64,000 bases of DNA. Source: Numidum massiliense (GTDB lineage: Bacteria; Bacillota; Bacilli; Thermoactinomycetales; Novibacillaceae). How positions within the stretch are numbered: the first letter of the stretch is position 1; each line of letters opens with the position of its first letter. The position numbers and the translations under genes are program-made. The notes under the pieces were generated by a model. That model saw nothing but the letters and a program-made list of their open reading frames with translations. It did not search any database and was not told the DNA's origin. This document shows, piece after piece, positions 22,022-59,338 of the stretch. The DNA lies in the NCBI RefSeq assembly GCF_001375555.1, contig NZ_CTDZ01000009.1, positions 1,481,758 to 1,545,757 on the forward strand. The letters are read 5' to 3'.

Positions 22022-24481
22022 TTATTTTTTCGCTTTTTTCACGGTTACCGTTCGCGCGAAGCTCACTTGCCCTTTCGTGTTTTTCGCCGTGACGGTCAGC
22101 TTCGTGCCCGCTTTTTGCGGCTTAATTTTTACACTGAAGGCGCCTTTCGAGGTGGCTTTCGCACTGCCGAGCTTCGTTTTGCCGCGTTTGACGGTGACGG
22201 TCGCCTTAGCGCTTGTCTTCCCTTTTACCGTCTTGCTGCTGCTGTAGACCGCGTTTACCGTCGGTGCAGCGGGCTTCGCTTTTTTCACGGTTACCGTGCG
22301 CGCGAAGCTCACTTGCCCTTTCGTGTTTTTCGCTGTGACGGTCAGCTTCGTGCCCGCTTTTTGTGGCTTGATTTTTACACTGAAGGCGCCTTTCGAGGTG
22401 GCCTTCGCACTGCCGAGCTTCGTTTTGCCGCGTTTGACGGTGACGGTCGCCTTAGCACTCGTCTTCCCTTTTACCGTCTTGCTGCTGCTGTAGACGGTGT
22501 TTACTGTTGGTGCAGCGGGCTTCCCCTTCTTCACCGTCACGTAAGCGGACGATTTATGTTTCGTCTTCGCATCTTGGGCCACAACGGTAAGCTTTGTGCC
22601 GACTTTTTGCTTCTTAATCTTTACTGAAAATGTACCTTTACTGTTCGCCTTACCTTTACCGAGTACAGTTTTACCTTTTTTGACAGTGACTGTCGTCCCT
22701 TTTTTCGCCTTTCCAGTTACCGTCGTTTTTGTATGGTAGACGGTGTTGACCTTCAGCTTGATCGTGTCTGCTGCGTTAAACACTTTCGAGGCGTGCAACC
22801 GTCCGTATCCGTAGGTCGTGTCATACCCTTTTTTGCCGAGGTCAGTGCTGTTCTTCTGGAAGTACGACTTCGCTTTAGCCGGCGTCATGTCGTCGCGAAC
22901 CGAATACAAGTACGCGGCGACTGCGGAAACGTGTGGTGTTGCCATGGACGTACCGGACAAATATGCGACTTCCCCGTTCACGATCATGGCAGGTATTTTT
23001 TCACCGGGCGCAACTAAAGTGAGGCCTTTACCGTAGTTGGAAAACTTGCTCCGCTTGTCCTTATTGTTCGTCGAACCGACGGCAATGGTGTATGTCGAGG
23101 AAGCTGGGTAGCCAATCGTACCTTTCCCGGCGTTACCGGTTGCGGCGACGACTGTCACTTTTTTCTTGTTCGCATACTTTAACGCATCTTCGACCACTTG
23201 GCTTTTGCCGCTCGTTCCTAAACTGAGGTTAATCACTTTGGCGCCTTTGTCAGTAGCGTATTTAATCCCTTTCGCAATGTCGCTCGCCCAACCGCGGTTG
23301 TTGCGATCGAGTACTTTCACTGGAATAATCGTCGTTAGGTCGTTCACCCCGGTCATCGAATAACCGTTGCCACTTTTTGCCCCGATAATGCTGCTCACGT
23401 GTGTCCCGTGGGAATGGTCGTCCATCGCATCCTTGTTGTTATGGACATAGTTTTTACCGTCTTTTACGCGGCCACTGAAGTCAGACGCCGTATATTCAAT
23501 GCCCGTATCGAGGACAGCAACTTTCGTTTTACGTAAGTTTTTCCCTTTCAGCGCATTTTTTAGCGAGGCATATTTAATATCTGCCCCTTTGGTCGCTTTG
23601 TTGGCGAGCGGCCACTGATAGCTGTAATTGACATCGTTAGCGAAGCCTTCAAATTGTCGGTTCGCTTCTGCGTACTCAACTTCCGGCAGTGCGCTTAATT
23701 GCTTTGCCACGTCGGTGACCTGTTTTTTGGCTTGCGCTTTCCCGTTGAGTTTGACGACGTACAAATTATCAATGAATGTTTCACCGCTAAAATCACGGTA
23801 CGTTGCCACATCGACTGATTTTTTCGTTAACGACTTCGTTTTCTGGCCGACGAATGCTTTAGCAGCGCCTTCTGCTTTCGCGCCGTCTTTCATTTTGACG
23901 AACACGAGGTTCGCTTTATCGGCATCGCTTAGTTCTCCCGTCAGCCCTTTGTGATCCAACCGCTTTTGCTGTAGATCTGCCGGTAGCCCTTCCGCTTGTG
24001 CGGCACCGCTCGCCGAACTGCCCGCTATGTTGCGCGGACCTTTCTTGATTGCACTTACTTTCACCGAGAATGAGCCTTTACTGTCGGCTACTACATAGTA
24101 CGGACCCTTCCACGCGATCGGGAAATCGTAAGAACCAGTCTTGCCAGCGTTAATTTTTTTGTAGTGGTAAGTCAAACCTTTGTCCAATCTCTTTTTGTCC
24201 GGGAACAAGAAAATTTCCGTGGTCGACTTTGCCTTTACCGTCACGCGCATGTGCGTTTTAGCTTTAACTTCACTCGCTTTAGGCGTAACCTTGTAAACTT
24301 TCAACGCCTGTCCTTGCATCGAACCTTCGACTTCTTGACCGAGTGCGAGATCCTCTTCCCCAGATTGCGCGCCACTCGTATTCGCAGCAAAACTTTCGAG
24401 CGGGATGAGCGCAACGCACATTACGACAGCGAGTGCGAGGCACAACGCTTGTCCGAGACGTTTCGTCATGGATTCTTTCAT
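22022..24481 (-). CDS. Secreted subtilisin-family serine protease (S8) with three C-terminal Ig-like repeats
   Basis: Extracellular protease precursor of about 819 residues. A signal peptide covers residues 1-32 (ALCLALAVVMCVALIPLESFA); a pre-/pro-region reaches about residue 280. The catalytic triad is intact: Asp325 (VLDTGIE), His358 (HGTHV), Ser512 (SGTSMATPH), with the oxyanion Asn450 (AATGNAG). The last 250 residues are three lysine/threonine-rich beta repeats of about 82 residues; the last two are nearly identical in DNA as well. They may bind the cell wall. The ATG was chosen because it starts a normal signal peptide; GAGAGGAG lies 12 bases upstream. It has no close partner gene. Confidence 0.92.
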   Translation of the reverse strand: MKESMTKRLGQALCLALAVVMCVALIPLESFAANTSGAQSGEEDLALGQEVEGSMQGQALKVYKVTPKASEVKAKTHMRVTVKAKSTTEIFLFPDKKRLDKGLTYHYKKINAGKTGSYDFPIAWKGPYYVVADSKGSFSVKVSAIKKGPRNIAGSSASGAAQAEGLPADLQQKRLDHKGLTGELSDADKANLVFVKMKDGAKAEGAAKAFVGQKTKSLTKKSVDVATYRDFSGETFIDNLYVVKLNGKAQAKKQVTDVAKQLSALPEVEYAEANRQFEGFANDVNYSYQWPLANKATKGADIKYASLKNALKGKNLRKTKVAVLDTGIEYTASDFSGRVKDGKNYVHNNKDAMDDHSHGTHVSSIIGAKSGNGYSMTGVNDLTTIIPVKVLDRNNRGWASDIAKGIKYATDKGAKVINLSLGTSGKSQVVEDALKYANKKKVTVVAATGNAGKGTIGYPASSTYTIAVGSTNNKDKRSKFSNYGKGLTLVAPGEKIPAMIVNGEVAYLSGTSMATPHVSAVAAYLYSVRDDMTPAKAKSYFQKNSTDLGKKGYDTTYGYGRLHASKVFNAADTIKLKVNTVYHTKTTVTGKAKKGTTVTVKKGKTVLGKGKANSKGTFSVKIKKQKVGTKLTVVAQDAKTKHKSSAYVTVKKGKPAAPTVNTVYSSSKTVKGKTSAKATVTVKRGKTKLGSAKATSKGAFSVKIKPQKAGTKLTVTAKNTKGQVSFARTVTVKKAKPAAPTVNAVYSSSKTVKGKTSAKATVTVKRGKTKLGSAKATSKGAFSVKIKPQKAGTKLTVTAKNTKGQVSFARTVTVKKAKK
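22031..22522. repeat. Two near-identical 246-base tandem repeats in the protease gene
   Basis: Units start at 22031 and 22277, exactly 246 bases (82 codons) apart, and differ at few positions, mostly silent. A third, more diverged unit lies further upstream in the gene. Such identity means recent duplication or ongoing gene conversion. Confidence 0.85.
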
Positions 24482-24955
24482 TCTATCGTTTTTCTCCTCT
24501 CTCAATGAAAACTTCTCCTACACAAAATCGACATCACGCAAAAGTCGCAAAATTAAAGGTAGACAACGCCACTTAACAAACTTGCTCTTCACACCCTTAT
24601 TTTGCGAAAATCGGCCACCTAAACATACAGTTTCAGACTTGTATACGATCCCGCTCACCGGTTAGATTATTCTATACTCGAATCTTCCGTTTACTAAAAC
24701 GCCAGTTTTAACCGCTACATATGCCCTTTCTGTAAATTCTATGTGTAACCAATTAAATTATAGATTTTTGTGTCGATTCGTAGTGTATGTAGGCAATGCT
24801 GAAAACTTACACTACCAATAGTACCCAATACTATGGCTGAAAGTCAACTAGATCGTTTAATGGTAAAATAAACCAATGGGAATTGCTGTTTTTGCTCTGT
24901 AAGGGCAGTCGGCACACACTTGTCGACCTCCCGCATCTGCCACTTTGGCGACATT
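24482..24955. other. Intergenic region before the protease gene
   Basis: No complete gene. It holds a 26-base element at 24660-24685 that recurs near 32.2 kb, an everted repeat ATAGTA-N5-TACTAT at 24818-24834, and the 5' part of a frame interrupted by the IS21 element. Confidence 0.5.
24660..24685. repeat. Dispersed promoter-region element, copy 1
   Basis: GGTTAGATTATTC followed by CGAATCT after 6 bases. The same element (GGTTAGATTATTC, five bases, CGAATCT) occurs at 32224-32248 in front of another minus-strand gene. Here it lies about 180 bases upstream of the protease start. Confidence 0.45.
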
Positions 24956-25020: not shown

Positions 25021-25743
25021 CTACCAATTCATGTAAGAATGCTTCAGTCGGTAACTCGTGCCACTAAATGTGATCAAGTAACTGTAATGCACAAGGCGAT
25101 CGATGATCGCGTTCGTGAGTCGTTCATCGTGAAAGACACTGTTCCACTTACTAAATTCCAAGTTAGTCGTGAGGATGACGCTTCGCTTCTCATAGCATCC
25201 GGCAATGACTTGAAACAATAACTGCGCGCCTTCCCCGTTAAGGGGGATGTACCCCCATTCGTCGCAGATGAGCAAGTCCACCTTCTCCAACTGCTGTATA
25301 AATCGTTGCAATTGCCCCTTTTGGTTAGCGTCAATCAATGCATTCACGAGCGCCGCTGTGCGGTAAAACTTTACGCGCTGCCCTTGGTTGCAGGCTGCCA
25401 CACCGATGGCTGTGGCAAGATGCGTCTTCCCTGTGCCGACTGGGCCGTAAAGAATTAGGTTTTCTTTACGCGCAACAAAAGATACCTCCTTTAATGTATC
25501 GATACTGAGGGGGCGGGGGAGCTCGATCCCTTCGAACACATACCCCTCAAACGTTTTGATCCTATCAAAATTCGCTTGCTTGAGTAACCGGTTTTTACGG
25601 TTCACCTCCCGCTGTGCCACTTCACTAGCGAGTAATTGTGCAAGGAACTGTTCATGTGTCTCTGCCTGAATAGTCGGATAAACATCGACGATGTGACTGC
25701 CGAGTTTTAGCGCCTTGCAGTGGGCGGCAATCATGTCTTTCAT
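25021..25743 (-). CDS. istB: IS21 helper ATPase
   Basis: AAA+ ATPase of 240 residues that works with IstA in target selection. Walker A GPVGTGKTHLA and Walker B LLICDEWGYIPLN are intact, and the C-terminal ILTTNLEFSKWNSVFHDERLT region is typical. The start overlaps the istA stop by four bases (ATGA), so translation is coupled. Full length for the family. Confidence 0.93.
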   Translation of the reverse strand: MKDMIAAHCKALKLGSHIVDVYPTIQAETHEQFLAQLLASEVAQREVNRKNRLLKQANFDRIKTFEGYVFEGIELPRPLSIDTLKEVSFVARKENLILYGPVGTGKTHLATAIGVAACNQGQRVKFYRTAALVNALIDANQKGQLQRFIQQLEKVDLLICDEWGYIPLNGEGAQLLFQVIAGCYEKRSVILTTNLEFSKWNSVFHDERLTNAIIDRLVHYSYLITFSGTSYRLKHSYMNW

Positions 25744-27233
25744 CGCCCATCACCTTTTCTTATTCTTAGCAAGTGATCGTAAGATCCAAGATCCGTCTTG
25801 TAAATAGCATGTGACGGCACGTCGTGTGAGACAGCAAGTGTAGAGCACTCATTCGCACGCCCGGTGAGACGGTACCAAGTGGCAAGTAAGCTATCCGCGT
25901 CATCCACGCCTTGGGCGAGTGTTTCTTCCAATGCCGTCGTCGCAAGTTGCATGTCTCCTTGGCTTAGAAATTCCGCAAGTAATCGCAACCCCTTCGGTCG
26001 TCGCTCCTTGACCGTTAGGTACTCGCGCCACGGGTCGGGCAGTTGTCTGTAAAACGCCGTATACTTCATCGCATTGGGCCGTTTCGCCATGAGTGACAAA
26101 TACGGTGTCCATTTCATCGCTTCTTTCCCTTCTCCGTAGATACGGGAGTGCGTGACGATGGTGCGATAGGACTCATCTTGTACAATGACGCGATCGCAGG
26201 TCACTTTGAGCCATACTTCCTGACGTGCTAACCCCGGTGATGTCGAGTAACGGTTTTTCTGAAAGCATACTTTTCCGTACTTATCAGTTTTCGCTTTGAC
26301 CATGCGGTGGACGTCAAAGGCTGTGCGCGGCAGTGGCTTGAACTGTGCAGCATCTGCTTGAAACCGTTCGGCGATCTGCTCCTGATGCTTATAGTGCGTA
26401 CGCTGCATATCCCGTTCGCATCGCTGTAGTAGATCAGCGTTATAAGCATCCAGATCCTCAAATTTAGGGATCGGGACGAAGAAGTTTCGCCGGTGGTAGC
26501 CGACCTTATTTTCGACATGCCCTTTTTCGTTCCCGCTATTCGGGTTGCAAAAGGTAGGCTCGAAGCCGTGGTGATAGGCAAACCGGGCAAACGAATCGAC
26601 GAGTTGGCGCTCACCGTTTTTACAAATCGTCGCTACAGCCGCAGATAAGTTGTCAAACCATAGACGCGTAGGGACGCCACCGACATGCGCAAAGATTCGT
26701 TTGAGTCCTTCCAGTAAACACTCGGTATTTTGTGCGCGGAAGACTTGGACGTAGGCCGCATTGCTGTATGGGAACGACACGTTTAAATAATAGCCTTTAA
26801 AGGCTTGTCCCTTTTCTTCAAACGTAGCCTCTCCGAAGTCGACCTGTGCCTCCCCCGGCGTATGTTCGAGCGGGATGTAACCGCGCGTCTTCTCCTTAAG
26901 TGCTGTCTTCTTCTTGGCAACGTAGTACTGAACGGTCCTTAGCGATACATTGAAGGCCTCACCGTGCATTTCCTTAAGGCGTTCATAGACGCGTCGCGCA
27001 GTATGCTTCTGTTTACGCGGAGCTTTTAAGTCGCCCTCTAGCCAATCGTCGATCGTCTCCTTGTAGGGATCCAGTTTGGATCGACGCGGTTTCCGCTTCG
27101 GAGTTTCATTCCAATCCTCCATGTCGATGTACTTTTTAATCGTTTTGAAGTCGTGTGTTGTTCGCCGCTGAATTTCTCGTAAAGATAGCCCTTCCCTTTC
27201 GTATAAAGACTTGATATAGTGAACGTGAACCAT
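25740..27233 (-). CDS. istA: IS21 transposase
   Basis: DDE transposase of about 497 residues. It has an N-terminal helix-turn-helix (LSLREIQRRTTHDFKTIKKYI), then the catalytic core: first Asp in AQVDFGEA, second in RLWFDNLS, and Glu in NEKGHVENKVG. The ATG was chosen because GAGGTG lies six bases upstream; a GTG three codons earlier is also in frame. Intact and full length. Confidence 0.93.
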   Translation of the reverse strand: MVHVHYIKSLYEREGLSLREIQRRTTHDFKTIKKYIDMEDWNETPKRKPRRSKLDPYKETIDDWLEGDLKAPRKQKHTARRVYERLKEMHGEAFNVSLRTVQYYVAKKKTALKEKTRGYIPLEHTPGEAQVDFGEATFEEKGQAFKGYYLNVSFPYSNAAYVQVFRAQNTECLLEGLKRIFAHVGGVPTRLWFDNLSAAVATICKNGERQLVDSFARFAYHHGFEPTFCNPNSGNEKGHVENKVGYHRRNFFVPIPKFEDLDAYNADLLQRCERDMQRTHYKHQEQIAERFQADAAQFKPLPRTAFDVHRMVKAKTDKYGKVCFQKNRYSTSPGLARQEVWLKVTCDRVIVQDESYRTIVTHSRIYGEGKEAMKWTPYLSLMAKRPNAMKYTAFYRQLPDPWREYLTVKERRPKGLRLLAEFLSQGDMQLATTALEETLAQGVDDADSLLATWYRLTGRANECSTLAVSHDVPSHAIYKTDLGSYDHLLRIRKGDGR

Positions 27234-27529
27234 TGTCAACACCTCGTGTTTTCCTCCTCTAACTGATTGCCGTCAATTAGAGGGTAGTAATTAATTGGGG
27301 TGCTGGCAATGGTCTTTTCGTTTTCCAGCTCAATGCGGGATTTTTAAGTTGCGTTTTGCTCCATTTCTATTTTGCACTAAACAGCGACATTGCCGTTGAA
27401 GGCTCTAACAAACTTGAACTGTCGACACTGGGTGCAACGAGGGGGTACCCTTTGTATTGGAAAAAAGTTAATAACGACACCGAAGCTCTTCGTCGTATCG
27501 AATCCCTGATAAACGTGTTAAAAAATTGA

Positions 27530-27877
27530 TGAAGTTGGGAACGGTTTCCCAAGATTAATCGTCTTAATATGTGAATGCATGAATGCCACGAAATTCGAGA
27601 GAGTGCTAGTAATTACACAATGGAATTAAGAAGCATATCTTCATTGTTTTTGGAACGTTGGTAACACAAATTATAACTATTACCGTCGAAATTACCAAAA
27701 AGTTATTCATGACGGCGAGTCAACAAGAGCCAGTTATACTTCCATATGAGTCAACAGCGCACAATCGATCGTCAAACGACATTTTAAGGGATAGTCGTTT
27801 GAGTTTTATTAAGGAATTGTTTGTTTCCTTATTGTCGTGAACTGGATGCTATACGATTAATGGAAGGGGCTTAAAAG
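27530..27877 (+). other. Region between IS21 insertion and the LuxR-type gene
   Basis: AT-rich, with no recognised gene. A 60-codon frame at 27658-27840 starts at TTG, begins with a hydrophobic stretch (VTQIITITVEITKKLF) and ends LSFIKELFVSLLS; its upstream frame stays open from about 27.61 kb with more hydrophobic residues. Since it precedes a regulator gene it could be a small membrane or signal peptide, but support is weak. Confidence 0.25.
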
Positions 27878-28506
27878 TTGGAACATGTAAATGTTTTATT
27901 ATTAGGAGAGAAAAGAGAACGCCTAAATGAAATATTCAAGTGTTTAGATAAGGAAAAGGACGTACATGTTTTCACTGTAGTTAGTTTGTCCAAGGCAACT
28001 AAAATTAACTTTCGTGTCGACTTCATTTTAGTTGATTGCGATTCTGTTAATGATTATGAACATCTTCCTTTCATTCGTGATTGGAATGCAGTAGCCATTT
28101 ATACACGTTTCACCAAAAAAACAAACTTCTGGAAGCCTTCAAAAAGGGATTTGTACATTTTCTACTTGTCGAAGATATATATCATTTACCTACTCAGATT
28201 CGACGTTTACACCGCTATTCCAACATGACTAATATCGATTTTCTTAAATTGTTAAAGGAGGAATATCTCCGATTAAAAAGGATCGAAACAAAATATGAGT
28301 ATGAAAAGAACTCAAGTAAATTGACACCATCAGAAATCAATATATTGAAATATATAGAAAAAGGATATACGCAAAGCCAAATCGCTGCCGAGTTATTTAT
28401 TTCTATTAGGACGGTAAAAAATCATATTAGTAATATACTGAAGAAAACAAAGTTAAATAGTAGTAAGGAGGCTGCAATTAAAGCGAGGGAACTTGAGCTT
28501 TTGTAA
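27878..28506 (+). pseudogene. LuxR-type response regulator, broken by a frameshift in an A7 tract
   Basis: Two overlapping frames together make one protein of about 209 residues. The first (TTG start, GAAGGGGC seven bases upstream) gives a receiver-like N-terminus (NVLLLGEKRERLNEIF, then FRVDFILVDCDS). The second continues with KLLEAFKKGFVHFLLVEDIYHL, a coiled region, and a LuxR helix-turn-helix (LTPSEINILKYIEKGYTQSQ, then ISIRTVKNHISNILKK). The frames join if the A run at 28115-28121 had eight A instead of seven. The receiver lacks an obvious phosphorylation pocket except the Asp in VDCDS. It could be a mutation, a sequencing error, or slippage on the A tract. No histidine kinase gene is nearby. 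Confidence 0.75.
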
Positions 28507-28527
28507 AAGTTGTTTGGGGTAATAAAT

Positions 28528-28968
28528 TTACTCCCGAGGACCTTTAGTATTTTCAATAATTGCCATTATAACTGAATAAACAAGCGCCAAGCTTATGAGC
28601 CCAAATCGAGACAGGCTGATATCTTTGATTAAATAGTCAAGTACATATATGTATCCTAGGACGTATAGAAAACTTATAATCTCTTCGATGATGAATTTTA
28701 ATTTGTTATTATCCGGGAATAGTGATTCCAAAATCGTCACCAAAGCAATACCGATTACCAGTGAAGGTAGGATCGAAATAGTCATCCCTATTCCGAACCA
28801 AAAGACACCCAAGGATGTCATTAGTTCAATGTTTAAAGGATTTATTTTCGAGGCAAGTACTAATACACCCATATTAGTAAGAACGACAACACCTAATATA
28901 ACTACGGCTAATAAAGCGATACCAATCCAAACAACTAGATGAGAAAAAATGCCTTTTATTGATTTCAT
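28528..28968 (-). CDS. Small membrane protein, possibly YrvL-like
   Basis: 146 residues with four hydrophobic segments (VVWIGIALLAVVILGVVVL; GVFWFGIGMTISILPSLVIG; IISFLYVLGYIYVLDYLI; FGLISLALVYSVIMAII). AAGGAG lies seven bases before the ATG. The layout and the C-terminal pattern resemble the YrvL regulatory family, but the match is from memory and weak. It lies between a broken regulator gene and a broken secreted-peptide gene, so an immunity role for the latter is an alternative. Confidence 0.7.
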   Translation of the reverse strand: MKSIKGIFSHLVVWIGIALLAVVILGVVVLTNMGVLVLASKINPLNIELMTSLGVFWFGIGMTISILPSLVIGIALVTILESLFPDNNKLKFIIEEIISFLYVLGYIYVLDYLIKDISLSRFGLISLALVYSVIMAIIENTKGPRE

Positions 28969-29212
28969 TTATTAACTCCTTACTGATTTTTGATTTCTTT
29001 CGTCGGCCAGTCATTTATTTATTAATAATTTCCTTAGGTCATTATTATAATGGAATACTGGCTTTTTGAAAAGAAAACGCCCTTCACTTTTACCTTTGAA
29101 AAATCCTCACTTCAGTTTTAGTCCAATAAAGAGAGAAGGACGTTTTCATCATTTATTGCAGTCTTAGTCTTATTCAAGTTGCGCTTCTTCTCACCACTTA
29201 GAAATAGGCCCT

Positions 29213-29706
29213 TTAAATCAACCAAAGAAGAAGCTCGGCAATTCTATTGGCATCTCCTTTGGGGATCCCAGCTTTCGTTAACGCAGCCACTATTGCTTTT
29301 TTAGTTACTTTGCTAGGCCACTCAAGGGCTTTCCCTATTTTTCCTGAATATACTCTGAGTAGTTTAGCATTTTTCTTGCTAAATACCCAAGGATTTTGGA
29401 TAATGCTTTTCCGCCAGTTCGAAATGCCCAACCAACATAACGGAGTACCTTAAGTGTACCACCAAGCACACCCTGTACTTGCGGATCACCGAGACTCTCT
29501 TTGAACTCGCTTTCAATAGCTTGGATTTCTTCCTCCGTCATGAATTGTTGAATAGTGACAATGAGCATTTCGTCGCTTATCTCTAGTTGTGATTCTGTTT
29601 CAGAAGATCCGCTAGCAAGAACCGTATACTCGCCAAACACAAATGCAAAACACGCAAACACAAGTACAAAGGCAACATTCCTTTGGAACCTTGGATTCAA
29701 TAACAT
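29213..29706 (-). pseudogene. Secreted cationic helical peptide, bacteriocin-like, frameshifted
   Basis: Two frames together encode about 164 residues. The first has a signal peptide (NVAFVLVFACFAFVFGEYTVLA), an acidic propeptide (SETESQLEISDEMLIV, then EEEIQAIESEFKES) and the start of a basic helical part (GGTLKVLRYVGWAFRTGGKAL). The second continues NAKLLRVYSGKIGKALEWPS and ends KAGIPKGDANRIAELLLWLI. They join if the A run at 29370-29374 had one more base. The design (signal peptide, acidic spacer, basic amphipathic C-terminus) is that of a secreted toxin or bacteriocin precursor, but I recognise no named family. It shares an operator with the cysteine-rich gene at 33.2-34.0 kb. Confidence 0.65.
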
Positions 29707-29847
29707 CTGTTAACCACGCTCCCATATTTTTTTGACTTGAAACTACATCGACCCTACGATCTGATAGCAAGGTGAAAAATGCCTCTTAGCACGCCCCCTC
29801 TATGTTTAAATACTCTTTATTTGACTGACTATTGATGTCTAAATTAA

Positions 29848-29853
29848 AGTATA
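29848..29853 (-). promoter_or_regulatory. -10 element of the secreted-peptide gene
   Basis: TATACT in the minus sense within the palindrome AAGTATACTT. The equivalent position in front of the cysteine-rich gene has TACACT within AAGTACACTT. No good -35 is present in either, as expected for an activator-dependent promoter. Confidence 0.5.
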
Positions 29854-29874
29854 CTTATTTTTCGCAGATATTAT

Positions 29875-29896
29875 AGTACTATTTTTTTATAGTACC
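29875..29896 (-). promoter_or_regulatory. Operator palindrome, copy A
   Basis: AGTACTAT-N6-ATAGTAC, a 21-base interrupted palindrome whose 22nd position differs from copy B. It is centred about 44 bases before the predicted transcription start and 169 bases before the start codon of the frameshifted peptide gene. Confidence 0.65.
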
Positions 29897-30356
29897 CCTG
29901 ATACTTTATTATGGGTCAAAGTTGTTTGCGGGTTCTGGGACTATATTGGTCAGGATGCCTTAAGGCGAACGCGTGTCGCTTTAAAACAACCTCCAGTGCG
30001 TCATGAGTCCGAGGCGTCACTGACCATCTACCGGCGACTCGAACGTTTCCCTCGTTATGCCAACTGAGCACTTGTATATTCCCGCAGTATTTTTATAAAG
30101 GCGTGCTCGGATAACTGGGTTGCGAGCGAAATTACCGTGACGAATGGATACTAGTGAAGCACCAATTGCACCGAAAGATCAAGCGGATGGATATCACAAG
30201 CTGATATAACTAAACAAAACGCCTAAAAGCTAACGATATTGCATATCCCACAATTGACGGATATAATGGCCGTGATATGAGCTCATTGAAAAGACGGTGT
30301 TTTTTGTTAGGGGCGGAGCAAGTTCCTTGTCTTTCCTGCTGCGAGCATCTTCGCGT

Positions 30357-31489
30357 GTATGTGTAACATTTCTCTCGAAGGGTTTTAGCAGGAATTTGGA
30401 GGGAGAATATAGAAAAGGAAGACCTAAATAGTACTCCTAACCACCACGAAAGGAGAGGTCTTCCTTGAAAACCATTATACCAGAAATCGCTACTATCTTG
30501 GAACAGTCTACAGATATGTTGTCGTTTTGGGAAAGCTTACGTATTCGCCTGATGGAAGTGATGGCTGATCTGTTCGGAGAATTTTTGGAGCAGCTCGATC
30601 AGATGATGACGACGCATTACAAGGAAAAATACGGTTGGAAAAGTGAGCGATTGGACAGCCGGGAGTTCACCAGTTTTTTTGGGACAGTGTCCTATAAACG
30701 CCACTTGATGTACGACCGAAACGGAAACGCACATTACCCTGTCGATGAGGCAATCGGTTTAAAACGCCGTAAAAGATACAGCCCAGACCTTATGATGCTC
30801 GGAGCAGAGTTAGCTGCAGCGCCGGGAATGACCTACCGCCTCGCCTCAGAGGTCACGCAAAAACTTGCCGGTATAACGATCAGCCATACGACGTTTCAGC
30901 GCTTAGTAAAAGAAGCAGGTGAAGCTCAAGCTGTCATGGATGCTGAAAAAAGGGATCGAATTTTTGAGGATACGGTAATTCCTAACTCTCCGTCCGTTAA
31001 GCACTTATATTGCGAAGCAGATGGCTTATACGTCAAAGGGAGAGGCAAAGGAATAGAGATCAAAAATATGCTTGCCTATACCGGGTGGGAGCAAAACGGA
31101 CAGCGTGTCTCGTTAACAGATCGTCACGTCTTTTCTACCGTTGAATCGGTGGATGACTTTTGGGAAATAGGTTATGCAGCGATTCGACATCGTTGGGATC
31201 TCTCACATACACATGTGGCGACTAATGCGGATGCGGCTTCATGGATCTCTGAGGAACGCGTTCAAAATACCTTTTCTGAAGCGACATCGGTTGTCCGCCA
31301 ATTGGATCCTTTTCACGTAAAGAGGAGTATTCGTCGCGGGTTGAGCCGCCAGCCAAGGCTCATTCCTCAAATTGAAAAGGCAATATCCGAAAAAAATAAG
31401 GATAGGTTTAAAGCGGTGATTGATACGGCACAGGGAAATGCAGAGACGGAGCGAGAGGAAAAGCGTATCGAGAACATGCAGAAGTATCT
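30357..31489 (+). mobile_element. ISLre2-family element, 5' fragment
   Basis: The left end (GTATGTGTAACATTTCTC…) and the first 341 codons of the transposase (start 30465, frame ending at 31494) match the complete copy at 57.7-59.3 kb without a visible protein difference. The match stops at 31489, in the codon for Leu341, so the last third of the element is missing. The break abuts the 5' fragment of another gene. The identity to the full copy says the truncation is recent. The product cannot be an active transposase. Confidence 0.9.
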
Positions 31490-31547
31490 ACCATAGTCGA
31501 TAGTCGAGTGCTTCAAGGTAACGCTGGATGTCGAAAGGATATGTCAT
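31490..31547 (-). pseudogene. N-terminal fragment of a paralogue of the next membrane protein gene
   Basis: Reading from ATG at 31547 the 19 codons MTYPFDIQRYLEALDYRLW align with MHYPPIFQRYLEALNYYLW, the start of the intact gene whose ATG is at 32207. The frame then meets the broken end of the ISLre2 fragment and stops. So a tandem paralogue once stood here and lost all but its start when the element inserted and the flank was deleted. Confidence 0.7.
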
Positions 31548-31586
31548 AATATCAGCTCATTGTACCGGTCACACTTATTGCAGTTA

Positions 31587-32207
31587 TCACTCAAAAACTT
31601 TCAATGCATATCTCGTGTACAGCCACTGTATTGGCAACTGTACGAGAAGTAGCAAAACGGCAGGAATGACAATTAATTTCCAATGGAGGTGCTGGAACTG
31701 TGTTTCAAATCCGAGGGCCATTACGTAAATTAGCATGAAACTTAGTGCAAAGTAACGCAAAAGCTCCCGCAACACTTTACGGTCGTAACGGTAATAAAAT
31801 AGCGTTCCTAAACTGACGAAGTAAAAAAAGACGAGTGAGAGTACGTGTGGCCATAACTCGTGGTATGCCTCTTTCTGCAAACCTTGTATAAAACTTGGGG
31901 TGATGATAGAACCAAACATGAGTATAAGGGGCATATTCGAAAAGAAACGTTTTATAGACTTAGTGAATGAGTCGTTATTCGAAGTATTTTTTGTCTGATG
32001 CTTCACTATTTGTTCCGGATCCCCAAGCTCACGTAGCATTCGTTTCATGTTCTCTTCAGAAGGAGTTGACGATTCCTGCATAAAATCATCCATTTGTTTT
32101 TTTACGGTAGTTAGTATGGCGTTTTTTTCTGCAGTCTTCAGTTCACTTAACCACAAATAATAGTTAAGTGCTTCTAAGTAACGCTGGAAAATAGGAGGAT
32201 AATGCAT
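31587..32207 (-). CDS. Membrane protein with N-terminal HAAS-like cytoplasmic domain
   Basis: 206 residues. The first 75 form a helical cytoplasmic domain ending SEENMKRMLRELGDPEQI, the pattern of the HAAS (DUF1700-like) domains that are often paired with PadR regulators; four membrane segments follow (MFGSIITPSFIQGL; VLSLVFFYFVSLGTLFYY; YFALSFMLIYVMALGF; LIVIPAVLLLLVQLPIQWLY). AAAGGAG stands eight bases before the ATG. No PadR gene is visible nearby. A truncated paralogue lies just downstream. Function unknown; membrane sensing or immunity are possible. Confidence 0.75.
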   Translation of the reverse strand: MHYPPIFQRYLEALNYYLWLSELKTAEKNAILTTVKKQMDDFMQESSTPSEENMKRMLRELGDPEQIVKHQTKNTSNNDSFTKSIKRFFSNMPLILMFGSIITPSFIQGLQKEAYHELWPHVLSLVFFYFVSLGTLFYYRYDRKVLRELLRYFALSFMLIYVMALGFETQFQHLHWKLIVIPAVLLLLVQLPIQWLYTRYALKVFE

Positions 32208-32223
32208 ATGGTCATCTCCTTTG

Positions 32224-32248
32224 GGTTAGATTATTCAATCCCGAATCT
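32224..32248. repeat. Dispersed promoter-region element, copy 2
   Basis: GGTTAGATTATTC and CGAATCT with a five-base gap, matching the element at 24660-24685. Here it lies within 20-45 bases of the start codon of the HAAS-domain membrane protein, so in the promoter or leader. Confidence 0.45.
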
Positions 32249-32404
32249 ATTTGTACAATTTCCTTCAGGTACCGATGACGCGTAAAGGCTGACCACAGAA
32301 AGAGCAAGGAACTCCCCCCCCGTTGCCCCCGATCAAAGAACACTTGTTGCCTTTTCAATTTCTCCTCCTGTTCTGTTAAACATACACATCAAAACAGTAG
32401 AGGA

Positions 32405-32490
32405 TTATTTGGAGGCTGGCAAGCCTTTTTTGTTCTGCAGACTATGTACGTTTTCTCTGCAAGACTATGTACCTCTATTTTGCACTAAAC
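32405..32490. mobile_element. Solitary IS21-type terminal end (relic)
   Basis: CTATTTTGCACTAAACA at its right side is the same as the right end of the intact IS21-family element (18 bases identical counting the next base inward); sequence beyond that differs. Two imperfect copies of CTGCA-AGACTATGTAC lie inside, as expected for the multiple terminal repeats of this family. No transposase frame is attached. Confidence 0.4.
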
Positions 32491-32612
32491 ATTGGGATAC
32501 GTCTCTAATTGTATCTGCGCGTACAAGTACACGTCAACAGAGATGTCCCTTCCTTTCTGTAAGGTTAAACAATCGTGGTCATTATATCCGGCATCTCTTA
32601 GAAGTTGAGTCC

Positions 32613-33202
32613 GTATAATTGTGTAAGAAGGACTTCCAAAAAATAAAGGGAGCCAGTTTCAAAAATCCTCGGTTAGAATGAAAGTTGAGAGACCACATTC
32701 TAGAGAGGATAAATTTTGAAATGGCTCAATACAAGATTACCGTAGATCAGGAATTACTGCACCAGCTTTTTTTAAGAAATTCCAAAGAAGCCGGTGTCGC
32801 TAAGTTGCTCAAATCGGTATTAAACCAAGTACTTCAAGCCCAAGTGACGGAACAGGTGGCTGCTGAACCTTATGAGCGCACCGAAGATCGTCGCGCCTAT
32901 CGTAACGGGTCATACCCCCACCAGTGACGACGCGTGTGGGCACGCTGACCTTACACGTCCCACGGCTCCGAAACGGTCAATTTTCCACCGATCTGTTAAC
33001 ACGTTACCAGAGGAGCGAACAAGCCATAATGCTTGCGATGATGGAGATGGTCGTTACGGCTTTCCACACGCAAGGTCTCCCAGGTAACAGAAGAACTTTT
33101 TGGAAGAAGCTTTTTCAAGTCTACCGTGTCGGATCTGTGCAAACGACTGGATCCGATCGTGGCGGCATGGAATGATCGTCCGCTTTCGGACAACCAGTTT
33201 TG
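32613..33202 (+). pseudogene. IS256-family transposase remnant with several frameshifts
   Basis: From ATG 32721 (GAGAGGAT upstream) the frame reads AQYKITVDQELLHQLFLRNS, typical of Bacillus IS256-type transposases, down to YRNGSYPHQ. Then a one-base loss produces a stop; the next frame continues TTRVGTLTLHVPRLRNGQFS and RYQRSEQAIMLAMMEMVV, and further shifts scramble the rest (a later frame gives …DLCKRLDPIV and WNDRPLSDNQF). Only the N-terminal 40% or so is left. The 100 bases before the ATG look like the element's 5' end. Confidence 0.8.
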
Positions 33203-33234
33203 ACCTTTTCGGGCAATAACCATTGTATGCTATC

Positions 33235-34044
33235 CTATTTTGCCCTTTTACAAATACCCGTATCCCAAAAATATGAGCAGGCCCAGTAACAAATTCGCGC
33301 TAATACAGGGTTTAAAGAAAAGGCAACGCAAGCGCCAAAACAACCAACCCGACCAGCAAATTGGCACGCGAACTCTTCCCAACTATAACTTGGCGCAAGA
33401 TTACCCATCGTAAGAGTAGTCTGACCTATGTTATTACCATCAAGGTTGGACGTGCACCCACACCCTGAATTACCCGATGACCCTTCTACCCCATTGTTTT
33501 CCTTGAATTTCTTAAAGTCCTCAAGAGTGATCTTGCTAAAATCGCCCTTGTAACCTTTCTTCAAAGTTTGCACTTCAAACCAAATATCGGCATCGTTTTT
33601 TACGGTATCATTCAAGTGTGTCTTTACGACTGACAGTGATTCAATTTTATTATCCGATTCATTGAATATTCCAGCTACACCTACGTTGCTGTCTTTAGTG
33701 TTAAAGACAAACGTATAATACACCGCATTATTTTTCTTATAGTGTATAATGACCGGTGTACGACTTAGGTCTTCTTGATCTTCAATAGCTTGAGTCAGTT
33801 TCGCATACTCTCTGTGATTCGATATCTTTCTAGCAATGACAAGCGCTTCATTGCCTTTAACCTCCCTCAAATCCTCAACCCCACTACTCTTCCCCACCTG
33901 TTGAATTGTATCGGCGTACGGTTTATGCTCCATAGCTGTCGCTGCAACAAAACTCGGACCCGCAGACGTGACTAGAAGAGCAATTGCGACTACTAACACA
34001 AAAAGAAACCTACTCGGCCTTTTGAACTGTAAACTTCCTAACAT
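33235..34044 (-). CDS. Secreted protein with cysteine-rich, halocin C8-like C-terminus
   Basis: About 269 residues. A signal peptide covers the first 33 (FLFVLVVAIALLVTSAGPSFVAA). A mixed alpha/beta middle part of about 150 residues follows (YADTIQQVGKSSGVEDLREV, TPVIIHYKKNNAVYYTFVFN). After a short SSGNSGCGC hinge, the last 70 residues hold six more cysteines in ACQFAGRVGCFGACVAF and RICYWACSYFWDTGICK. Eight C-terminal Cys, Gly/Ala-rich spacing and a precursor layout with a long N-terminal part recall halocin C8, whose N-terminal domain gives immunity. The ATG has GGGGGG seven bases upstream. It shares an operator with the peptide gene at 29.2-29.7 kb. Similarity is by pattern, so the antimicrobial role is an inference. 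Confidence 0.7.
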   Translation of the reverse strand: MLGSLQFKRPSRFLFVLVVAIALLVTSAGPSFVAATAMEHKPYADTIQQVGKSSGVEDLREVKGNEALVIARKISNHREYAKLTQAIEDQEDLSRTPVIIHYKKNNAVYYTFVFNTKDSNVGVAGIFNESDNKIESLSVVKTHLNDTVKNDADIWFEVQTLKKGYKGDFSKITLEDFKKFKENNGVEGSSGNSGCGCTSNLDGNNIGQTTLTMGNLAPSYSWEEFACQFAGRVGCFGACVAFSLNPVLARICYWACSYFWDTGICKRAK

Positions 34045-34232
34045 TTGTAATCCCCCCAAAATAGATTGGCTCTTCAGTTGCATCAGTTACTTGAGTCAGC
34101 GCAAAAAAGCGACACGTGCTAACATACAATTAAACGATGAGTAACCGCTTTAAAACTTTGAATTAAATCAACTACCTAATCATGCCCCTCCGCTCAGATA
34201 ATGAATATGACTGACGAATGAAGTGTATATCA

Positions 34233-34238
34233 AGTGTA
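34233..34238 (-). promoter_or_regulatory. -10 element of the cysteine-rich protein gene
   Basis: TACACT (minus sense) in AAGTACACTT. It aligns with TATACT in front of the other peptide gene when the two operators are superimposed (spacing differs by one base). Confidence 0.45.
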
Positions 34239-34260
34239 CTTAAAAATCTGTAACTAAGAC

Positions 34261-34282
34261 AGTACTATTTATTTATAGTACT
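34261..34282 (-). promoter_or_regulatory. Operator palindrome, copy B
   Basis: AGTACTAT-N6-ATAGTACT, a 22-base interrupted palindrome with perfect 8-base arms, 178 bases after which (counted to the longest in-frame start) the cysteine-rich gene begins. Copy A at 29875 has the same arms and spacing. Confidence 0.7.
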
Positions 34283-34426
34283 AGTATCATTTGGCTCGCA
34301 TTGACTAGAACGATGGTCGATAGTTAGTGTACACCGTAATTTTCATGACCGTCCCCGAATGAAGCAGACGATGTTTAACATATATACAGCTTACTAATCG
34401 GTATATTTATAATACACCTTACCTTT

Positions 34427-34786
34427 TAAAAATATAATATGATAAAATCCTCGTAAAAGAAAGGAGGTGAGACACCATTATCAATCCTTACCCGGATCTT
34501 GGTAATGAGTAAAACACGACATAAAGAATCGAATAACTCCATGAATGGGGAGGCGAATTTGGCAAGTTGCAAAAAGATAAATATAAATGTAAAGAGCGTA
34601 AACCGCCGCACCGAACTGATGCTCTTTACCCCATTTCGTTCCACGAGTTTCATAGTTTTACGGTATTATTTTTTTGCCATGCAAAATATAATAACCTTCG
34701 GTAGACTAAGTTTAAGGAGATGTCAGTGTAAAGGTTATTGTAAACGTTATCGTAAAGGTTAATCCTTAACGATTGAGGTGATTGCG
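34427..34786 (+). other. Spacer before the DMT exporter gene, with an orphan ribosome site
   Basis: AAAGGAGGTGAG at 34459-34470 is an almost perfect anti-16S match, yet no ATG, GTG or TTG follows at normal distance. An ATT at 34476 would give only an 11-residue peptide (INPYPDLGNE after the start). A longer frame from 34499 has no ribosome site. This may be the relic of a lost gene. The right end carries three 12-base tandem repeats. Confidence 0.35.
34727..34762. repeat. Three 12-base tandem repeats before the DMT exporter
   Basis: TGTAAAGGTTAT, TGTAAACGTTAT and CGTAAAGGTTAA follow one another. The stretch GTAAACGTTATCGTA inside it differs by one base from GTAAACGTTACCGTA in the palindrome in front of the nucleoside transporter operon at 40.66 kb. 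Confidence 0.55.
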
Positions 34787-35686
34787 TTGCCGCGCAAACA
34801 AATGCCCCCGTCTGTAGTCGCCGCACTCATCCTAGCAATTACGGTCATTTGGGGCTTCGCTTGGGTGCTCATGAAAGTATCGCTTCAGTACATGGGGCCG
34901 TTCACGTTTTCCGCTCTGCGCTTCGGCGTCGGTTCGGCGACGTTGTTCGCCGTCTTAGGCTGGCACAACAAAAAAGCGCTCTGTCCACGCAAAATTGACA
35001 TCGCTCGCTTTCTATTACTCGGCACGCTGCAGACGGGGATCGTCTTTGCCCTCGTCATGTACAGTATGCGATTTGTGGCAGCGGGCAAGTCTTCTGTGTT
35101 GCTCTATTCGATGCCGCTGTGGAGTATTATTTTCGCCGCTAAGTTTCTACGAGAGAAAGTAACGCGACCACAAGTTTACGGCGTGTGTCTCGGCAGTTTA
35201 GGTCTCGTGTTACTCATCGGCTTCGACATCGTGTTGGTACAAAGCGCACGCATTATTTTCGGAGAAGCGTTGCTCGTGCTCGCTGCCATGTCGTGGGGGC
35301 TTGCCAATGTGTATTACAAACGAGCGTTTCCACAAACCGATCCGCTGCAAGTGTGCGCCTACCAAATGTTGTTCGGTGCCGCAGGCATCGCCCTTGTTGC
35401 GGTCGTTACCGAATGGGGCCGACCGCTTACCTGGACAGGGACGAGTTTGTTTGCCCTCCTATTTACAGGGGTGCTCGCCTCTGCCTTTTGCTATGCGGTG
35501 TGGTTTTTTATTCTCACCGTCGTGAATACGGCACAAGCGACAATTGCTACGTTGCTCGTCCCTATTTTTGGCCTCCTGTTTAGTTGGCTTATGTTGGACG
35601 AAGCGTTGACTTTGCAGATGCTACTTGGGAGCGCATGCATCTTGGGTGGCATTGTCGTGTCACAATTGCCGCCGCTGCGCAACTAA
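34787..35686 (+). CDS. DMT-superfamily transporter (EamA family)
   Basis: About 299 residues, ten predicted membrane helices in two EamA halves: the first begins ILAITVIWGFAWVLMKVSLQ, the second LLVLAAMSWGLANVYYKRAF. The C-terminal LLVPIFGLLFSWLMLDEALT is typical. I place the start at TTG (MPRKQMPP), because GAGGTGAT lies five bases before it; the GTG nine bases earlier overlaps that site. Likely exporter of a small metabolite; the substrate is unknown. It stands alone at the edge of the accessory island, ended by a strong hairpin. Confidence 0.85.
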   Translation: MPRKQMPPSVVAALILAITVIWGFAWVLMKVSLQYMGPFTFSALRFGVGSATLFAVLGWHNKKALCPRKIDIARFLLLGTLQTGIVFALVMYSMRFVAAGKSSVLLYSMPLWSIIFAAKFLREKVTRPQVYGVCLGSLGLVLLIGFDIVLVQSARIIFGEALLVLAAMSWGLANVYYKRAFPQTDPLQVCAYQMLFGAAGIALVAVVTEWGRPLTWTGTSLFALLFTGVLASAFCYAVWFFILTVVNTAQATIATLLVPIFGLLFSWLMLDEALTLQMLLGSACILGGIVVSQLPPLRN

Positions 35687-57722: not shown

Positions 57723-59338
57723 GTATGTGTCAAGCTTTACTCGACGACCTTACAGGATCAAGGATTTAAAGACCTAAATATGTCATTCCCTAACGTTCAC
57801 TTGTTGTCCGCCCTTGAGGAGTTAACTCTTCAAGGACGGCGATTAACCACCTTATCCAAATACCCAATAGCACTTGAAGCTGATGCGGCACCTACTTGGA
57901 TCCTGCCAACTTGAACCCCAATGTGATCCGACTTACCTATTCGCCTCGCATGGCGTTTTAGTTTTTGTGTCACTTGGCGGTTGGGCCAGACAGTTAATAA
58001 TGCCTGTCTCAACGTCCCATTGGTAACGCCTTGTTGTACTTTGGCGATGGCTTGAGCCCCTTCTTCACTCCAGTACATGCCACGACGTTTCATGCGGTAT
58101 GCCAGACGTCTCTGGTTCGATTCCATGCATCCCATCCTACGAGCATTTTTTGGCACGTCTGGACTAACCTCACGCCAGTCGCAGAGGATCTCCCAGTGCC
58201 CTTCAAGATACTTCTGCATGTTCTCGATACGCTTTTCCTCTCGCTCCGTCTCTGCATTTCCCTGTGCCGTATCAATCACCGCTTTAAACCTATCCTTATT
58301 TTTTTCGGATATTGCCTTTTCAATTTGAGGAATGAGCCTTGGCTGGCGGCTCAACCCGCGACGAATACTCCTCTTTACGTGAAAAGGATCCAATTGGCGG
58401 ACAACCGATGTCGCTTCAGAAAAGGTATTTTGAACGCGTTCCTCAGAGATCCATGAAGCCGCATCCGCATTAGTCGCCACATGTGTATGTGAGAGATCCC
58501 AACGATGTCGAATCGCTGCATAACCTATTTCCCAAAAGTCATCCACCGATTCAACGGTAGAAAAGACGTGACGATCTGTTAACGAGACACGCTGTCCGTT
58601 TTGCTCCCACCCGGTATAGGCAAGCATATTTTTGATCTCTATTCCTTTGCCTCTCCCTTTGACGTATAAGCCATCTGCTTCGCAATATAAGTGCTTAACG
58701 GACGGAGAGTTAGGAATTACCGTATCCTCAAAAATTCGATCCCTTTTTTCAGCATCCATGACAGCTTGAGCTTCACCTGCTTCTTTTACTAAGCGCTGAA
58801 ACGTCGTATGGCTGATCGTTATACCGGCAAGTTTTTGCGTGACCTCTGAGGCGAGGCGGTAGGTCATTCCCGGCGCTGCAGCTAACTCTGCTCCGAGCAT
58901 CATAAGGTCTGGGCTGTATCTTTTACGGCGTTTTAAACCGATTGCCTCATCGACAGGGTAATGTGCGTTTCCGTTTCGGTCGTACATCAAGTGGCGTTTA
59001 TAGGACACTGTCCCAAAAAAACTGGTGAACTCCCGGCTGTCCAATCGCTCACTTTTCCAACCGTATTTTTCCTTGTAATGCGTCGTCATCATCTGATCGA
59101 GCTGCTCCAAAAATTCTCCGAACAGATCAGCCATCACTTCCATCAGGCGAATACGTAAGCTTTCCCAAAACGACAACATATCTGTAGACTGTTCCAAGAT
59201 AGTAGCGATTTCTGGTATAATGGTTTTCAAGGAAGACCTCTCCTTTCGTGGTGGTTAGGAGTACTATTTAGGTCTTCCTTTTCTATATTCTCCCTCCAAA
59301 TTCCTGCTAAAACCCTTCGAGAGAAATGTTACACATAC
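57723..59338 (-). mobile_element. Complete ISLre2-family insertion sequence
   Basis: 1616 bases, with ends GTATGTGTCAAGCTTTACTC and (reverse complement of the right end) GTATGTGTAACATTTCTCTC, an imperfect inverted repeat. One intact transposase gene and a 9-base target duplication mean recent insertion. A 5' fragment of the same element is at 30.4-31.5 kb in opposite orientation. Confidence 0.92.
57830..59230 (-). CDS. ISLre2-family transposase
   Basis: 466 residues, start MKTIIPEIATILEQSTDML with GAGAGGT upstream. The SREFTSFFGTVSYKRHLMYD, PDLMMLGAELAAAPGMTYRL and EADGLYVKGRGKGIEIKNML blocks are typical of ISLre2 (DUF/UPF0236-like) transposases, and MGCMESNQRRLAYRMKRRGM is the usual C-terminal region. 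Full length and intact. Confidence 0.92.
   Translation of the reverse strand: MKTIIPEIATILEQSTDMLSFWESLRIRLMEVMADLFGEFLEQLDQMMTTHYKEKYGWKSERLDSREFTSFFGTVSYKRHLMYDRNGNAHYPVDEAIGLKRRKRYSPDLMMLGAELAAAPGMTYRLASEVTQKLAGITISHTTFQRLVKEAGEAQAVMDAEKRDRIFEDTVIPNSPSVKHLYCEADGLYVKGRGKGIEIKNMLAYTGWEQNGQRVSLTDRHVFSTVESVDDFWEIGYAAIRHRWDLSHTHVATNADAASWISEERVQNTFSEATSVVRQLDPFHVKRSIRRGLSRQPRLIPQIEKAISEKNKDRFKAVIDTAQGNAETEREEKRIENMQKYLEGHWEILCDWREVSPDVPKNARRMGCMESNQRRLAYRMKRRGMYWSEEGAQAIAKVQQGVTNGTLRQALLTVWPNRQVTQKLKRHARRIGKSDHIGVQVGRIQVGAASASSAIGYLDKVVNRRP

Follow-up and report, generated by a model that had tools for sequence, protein, structure and literature searches.

A candidate one-gene bacteriocin precursor of the halocin C8 type in Numidum massiliense

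INTRODUCTION

Halocin C8 of haloarchaea is made as a 283-amino-acid precursor that is exported through the Tat pathway and yields the protein HalI and a 76-amino-acid C-terminal peptide (PMC11509114). The protease that frees halocin C8 is still unidentified (PMC12893001). According to the title of Sun 2005, as cited in PMC11509114, a single gene directs both production and immunity. In Gram-positive bacteria, the closest described proteins are those of the model TIGR04450 (Gpos_C8_like; curated cut-off, 27 bits), which is annotated as "putative immunity/bacteriocin fusion bifunctional protein." TIGR04450-type proteins are encoded on hundreds of staphylococcal plasmids and on a few plasmids of Bacillus, Priestia, and Rossellomorea. 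The family models name the Gram-positive proteins "putative" fusion bacteriocins, and a literature search with most subscription journals outside its reach found no published experimental test of Gram-positive or other bacterial fusion bacteriocins. Here, we analyzed a 64-kb stretch of N. massiliense DNA (the window), which contains a gene for a secreted Cys-rich protein.

RESULTS

Gene and protein architecture

An earlier note on this DNA had described an open reading frame for a signal peptide, a middle part of about 150 residues, and a Cys-rich tail, and all of these were found at 33235-34044 on the minus strand. The features of the gene are as follows.

33235..34044, minus strand: candidate halocin-C8-like precursor gene, 269 amino acids, stop included in the coordinates (open reading frame; homologues at loci L027 and L036 and among TIGR04450-type proteins)
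34051..34057, minus strand: Shine-Dalgarno sequence GGGGGGA, 6 nt before the ATG at 34044 (sequence)
33934..34044, minus strand: Sec-type signal peptide, residues 1 to 37 (by eye; alignment with the signal peptide of the Croceifilum protein)
33475..33933, minus strand: middle domain, residues 38 to 190, candidate self-immunity or pro-domain (profile, alignment, low-confidence model)
33391..33474, minus strand: Gly/Ser/Asn/Thr linker, residues 191 to 218, with CGC at 195 to 197, candidate cleavage region (sequence, alignments)
33238..33390, minus strand: six-Cys tail, residues 219 to 269, candidate bacteriocin (profile comparison, Cys frame)

The open reading frame is a real gene, since a full-length homologue is present in Croceifilum oryzae. 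The frame could be extended up to 34083, which would give 282 amino acids. A start at 34083 appears less likely, because the ATG at 34044 is preceded by a clear Shine-Dalgarno sequence. The N. massiliense genome has one copy of the gene; a second TIGR04450 match in the same genome (G000:C9:3460566) covered only 31 residues with an E value of 1.8 and was taken as chance.

The signal peptide was called from sequence and alignment by eye. It has a basic n-region (KRPSR), a hydrophobic core, and a cleavage-like AATA. Residues 1 to 37 contain no twin arginine of a Tat signal. Halocin C8 is exported through Tat, while the window protein has a Sec-type signal.

The AlphaFold model, which was built from a two-sequence input, had a mean pLDDT of 42 and was unusable for disulfides. 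With low confidence (pLDDT of 50 to 70 at best, at residues ~60 to 140), it placed two helices and then a four-strand meander in the middle domain. Foldseek with this model returned no meaningful PDB match, and searches of PDB sequences and PHROGs gave no match to the window protein.

Homologues

Among 60 related genomes, a clear homologue was found in one, that of C. oryzae (Thermoactinomycetaceae). This homologue is 28% identical to the window protein overall, with 29% identity over residues 7 to 146 and 44% over residues 219 to 266. The tails of the two proteins have the motifs YSW, CFGxC, and WxxGIC in common. In another Bacillota genome, G458, the tail WVCKFAGALACSMACVIFIELPPVMLACRWACSYFWGMGACS closely resembles that of the window protein; its middle domain, which is secreted, is encoded ahead of it in a different frame. 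The homologue (L036 and L037 4944-6163) is split between these two frames; upstream of it lies a serine recombinase, and downstream a 4-TM gene. The homologue in genome G218 also has a broken frame.

When the window protein was searched against proteins of plasmids, phages, viral contigs, and genome contigs, no relative was found, nor did searches of viral contigs with four homologues find any. The homologues occur on small plasmids, adjacent to lysis genes of prophages, and in the vicinity of large serine recombinases, settings which are as expected for bacteriocin genes. A halocin-C8-precursor-like gene (L040 6692-7426, minus strand) was observed adjoining amidase-like and holin-like genes in what is apparently a prophage lysis region.

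Kinship with the TIGR04450 proteins

Using hmmscan, we found that the window protein matched TIGR04450 with 8.2 bits (E = 1.7), below the cut-off of 27. The sub-threshold match is colinear, running from window residues 102 to 258 along model positions 81 to 233 of 240. The Croceifilum homologue matched positions 35 to 238 of 240 with 15.7 bits (E = 0.0085). When the window and Croceifilum proteins were compared with five TIGR04450-type proteins by hhalign, the score was 44.4 (probability, 84.7; E = 6.6e-6), with 161 colinear columns from the middle through the tail, while the maximum in 60 column shuffles was 23.1. The middle alone and the tail alone were each marginal against shuffles; the significance thus comes from the combined length of middle and tail.

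These comparisons support homology of the window protein to the Gram-positive halocin-C8-like fusion proteins. Since the curated cut-off was not reached, we regard the window protein on its sequence as a divergent relative of TIGR04450 and have not filed it as a member. The TIGR04450 proteins likewise have a signal peptide, a middle part of ~150 amino acids, a six-Cys C-terminal tail, a total length of ~230 to 270 amino acids, and a location on accessory replicons. On the other hand, the tail of the window protein ends with the WACSYFWDTGIC motif, while TIGR04450 proteins have an Ala-rich CGTAFAAxC, and the linker of the window protein is longer and contains CGC.

The six-Cys tail

The eight cysteines described in the earlier note are present: residues 195 and 197 in the linker CGC and residues 227, 235, 239, 252, 256, and 265 in the tail. 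The predicted mass of the tail is 5.8 kDa from residue 219 or 8.1 kDa from residue 196. The tail cysteines of the window protein are spaced C-x7-C-x3-C-x12-C-x3-C-x8-C. The same six-Cys frame is common to the window, Croceifilum, G458, Staphylococcus aureus, S. ratti, B. altitudinis, and Rossellomorea proteins. When the tail was shuffled 200,000 times, the pattern C-x6-8-C-x3-C-x12-14-C-x3-C-x5-9-C arose 7 times, and a six-frame scan of the 64-kb window together with fetched loci totaling 197 kb found it only in the window protein and its homologues. The six-Cys spacing is not due to chance.

The CGC is missing from the equivalent place in the aligned homologues and therefore lies outside the conserved core. 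The earlier note had named four disulfides as a point to check. Because the CGC is not conserved, the core of the tail probably has three disulfides rather than four.

The link to archaeal halocin C8

The earlier note had called the tail halocin C8-like. The kinship to the Gram-positive C8-like proteins described above (44.4 versus 23.1, with the six-Cys frame) bears this out, but direct similarity to archaeal halocin C8 was undetectable. The window protein had no hmmscan match to TIGR04449, the halocin C8 domain, up to an E value of 10, and its profile comparison with archaeal halocin C8 remained at the shuffle level.

An intermediate was found in the protein L008 of genome G108. It matched NF040679, the halocin C8 precursor-like model (1.5e-18; 67 bits of a 200-bit cut-off), TIGR04450 (27.2 bits, at the cut-off), and TIGR04449 (15 bits, below the cut-off). 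The profile of window and Croceifilum proteins scored 38.8 against the L008 group, mainly in the tail, versus 22.7 in shuffles. The tail of the L008 group scored 23.0 against archaeal halocin C8 tails, versus 20.3 in shuffles. Since L008 matches NF040679, TIGR04450, and, weakly, TIGR04449, the homology of the window protein to archaeal halocin C8 appears to be indirect, running via this intermediate and the architecture.

The halocin C8 precursor (ProC8, composed of HalI and HalC8) resembles the window protein in having a signal, an N-terminal domain, and a Cys-rich C-terminal peptide, although archaeal halocin C8 tails carry more cysteines than the window tail. The NF040679 proteins are alike in architecture but different in Cys arrangement, and the window protein itself has no match to that model. 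We also considered whether the middle domain is homologous to archaeal HalI-like domains; profile comparison did not establish this, although similar stretches were seen by eye.

Genomic surroundings

The gene lies between IS21 genes and an EamA transporter. From 27 to 35 kb of the window, the GC content is 33 to 46%, versus about 50 to 55% around it, and the AT-rich stretch 27500-35000 is an accessory island. No transport or regulatory genes are directly beside the window gene. The mobile elements are as follows.

25021-27242: IS21, beside the island
30465-31496: truncated ISLre2, with a fuller copy at 57830-59230
32685..33175, plus strand: IS256/Mutator-type transposase, 5' fragment with a broken frame, shortly beyond the 3' end of the gene (Pfam PF00872 on both pieces; NCBIfam IS256)

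Three other genes of the region were noted. A subtilase (S8) at 22022-24505 (minus strand), 9 kb away with IS21 genes between, has a signal-like N terminus and Big_6 repeats and is a conceivable maturation protease. At 29213-29706 (minus strand), a 123-amino-acid open reading frame with a signal peptide and a cationic amphipathic C terminus is overlapped in another frame by a 72-amino-acid frame ending in KKAIVAALTKAGIPKGDANRIAELLLWLI; Pfam and NCBIfam gave no significant match for either, and the pair resembles another precursor of a small secreted peptide, interrupted by a frame break. At 31587-32207 (minus strand), a HAAS-like protein is encoded that ends in four TM helices. Its 4-TM half scored 22.8 over 102 columns against the product of the 4-TM gene that follows the Croceifilum homologue (shuffle maximum, 18.1), which hydrophobic patterning may explain.

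DISCUSSION

We established a secreted architecture of the window protein, its homology to TIGR04450-type proteins, and its conserved six-Cys frame. The interpretation in the earlier note is mostly right. The gene probably encodes a one-gene bacteriocin precursor of the halocin C8 type that has diverged from the Gram-positive branch described so far. In the mechanism that we propose, the full precursor would be exported through Sec. A protease outside the cell would then cut the flexible linker (~191 to 218) and free a tail of 5.8 to 8 kDa, in which the six conserved cysteines may form about three disulfides around hydrophobic helices. The freed tail would act on the membranes of competitors and kill them. 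By analogy with HalI for halocin C8, the middle domain may keep the tail inactive, protect the producer, or both. Speaking against this reading are the TIGR04450 score below the cut-off, the missing match to TIGR04449 and missing direct similarity to archaeal halocin C8, the marginal scores of middle and tail taken singly, the failure of the structure model to give support, and the absence of transport or regulatory genes next to the gene.

It was also considered that the middle may be an inhibitory or folding pro-domain only, with producer immunity coming from a separate small membrane protein. Genes for such proteins often flank the homologues: a divergent 64-amino-acid two-TM gene in S. aureus, an HTH-two-TM protein in B. 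altitudinis whose C terminus is related to the S. aureus two-TM protein (blastp, 41.2 bits), 4-TM genes downstream in Croceifilum and G458, and 75- and 68-amino-acid TM genes around the halC8-like genes of Halobacterium and Haloferax larsenii. However, these neighbors vary by group, and the 4-TM proteins of Croceifilum and G458 have no similarity to each other. The window gene has no adjoining membrane gene, the HAAS/4-TM protein being 1 kb away past the IS fragment, and the cited title of Sun 2005 assigns halocin C8 production and immunity to one gene. We therefore consider a pro-domain without immunity function doubtful. We looked in the window for remains of the 4-TM neighbor of Croceifilum or G458 and found none. 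Small TM genes recur near halocin-C8-like genes of both bacteria and archaea, at L030 3598-3792, L028 2671-3120, L033 2033-2260 and 3304-3510, and L034 2026-2253 and 3299-3505. The recurrent small TM proteins are candidate immunity or regulatory partners.

On the other hand, the gene may be a relic, intact in appearance but unexpressed, stranded on an IS-degraded island after the loss of any partner genes. The island is AT-rich and carries IS21, the truncated ISLre2, and the IS256-type fragment, which ends 60 bp downstream of the gene; a promoter scan gave nothing above chance, and the homologues in G218 and G458 are frame-broken. Yet the window gene is intact in its reading frame and start, in its ribosome-binding site and signal peptide, and in every core cysteine, which makes a relic quite improbable. 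Weak individual domain scores and a match to the FxLYD domain (16.7 bits over 22 linker residues) would fit a secreted surface or adhesion protein that is Cys-rich but unrelated and has a convergent Cys spacing. Nevertheless, the FxLYD match lies in a low-complexity linker, extends over 22 of 71 positions, and is below its cut-off, the colinear full-length profile match is far above shuffles, and the Cys spacing is missing from all unrelated frames scanned. Such convergence is very improbable, and we retain the bacteriocin precursor as the preferred reading.

In a broader and unlikely extension of that reading, the gene would represent a further branch of a domain-crossing bacteriocin class with the immunity part in the same polypeptide. 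This branch would occur in spore formers related to the Thermoactinomycetaceae and in another Bacillota genome, would be moved by serine-recombinase elements, and would be activated extracellularly by a general protease that the producer or a neighbor secretes.

By its sequence, the window protein is of a known kind, with a family in the databases, and is an unusually divergent relative. As a chromosomal, intact, and divergent member in a spore former, it offers a convenient test of whether weapon and antidote are combined in one polypeptide outside the archaea. The six-Cys frame, being conserved, provides a search pattern for more disulfide-bonded antimicrobial peptides.
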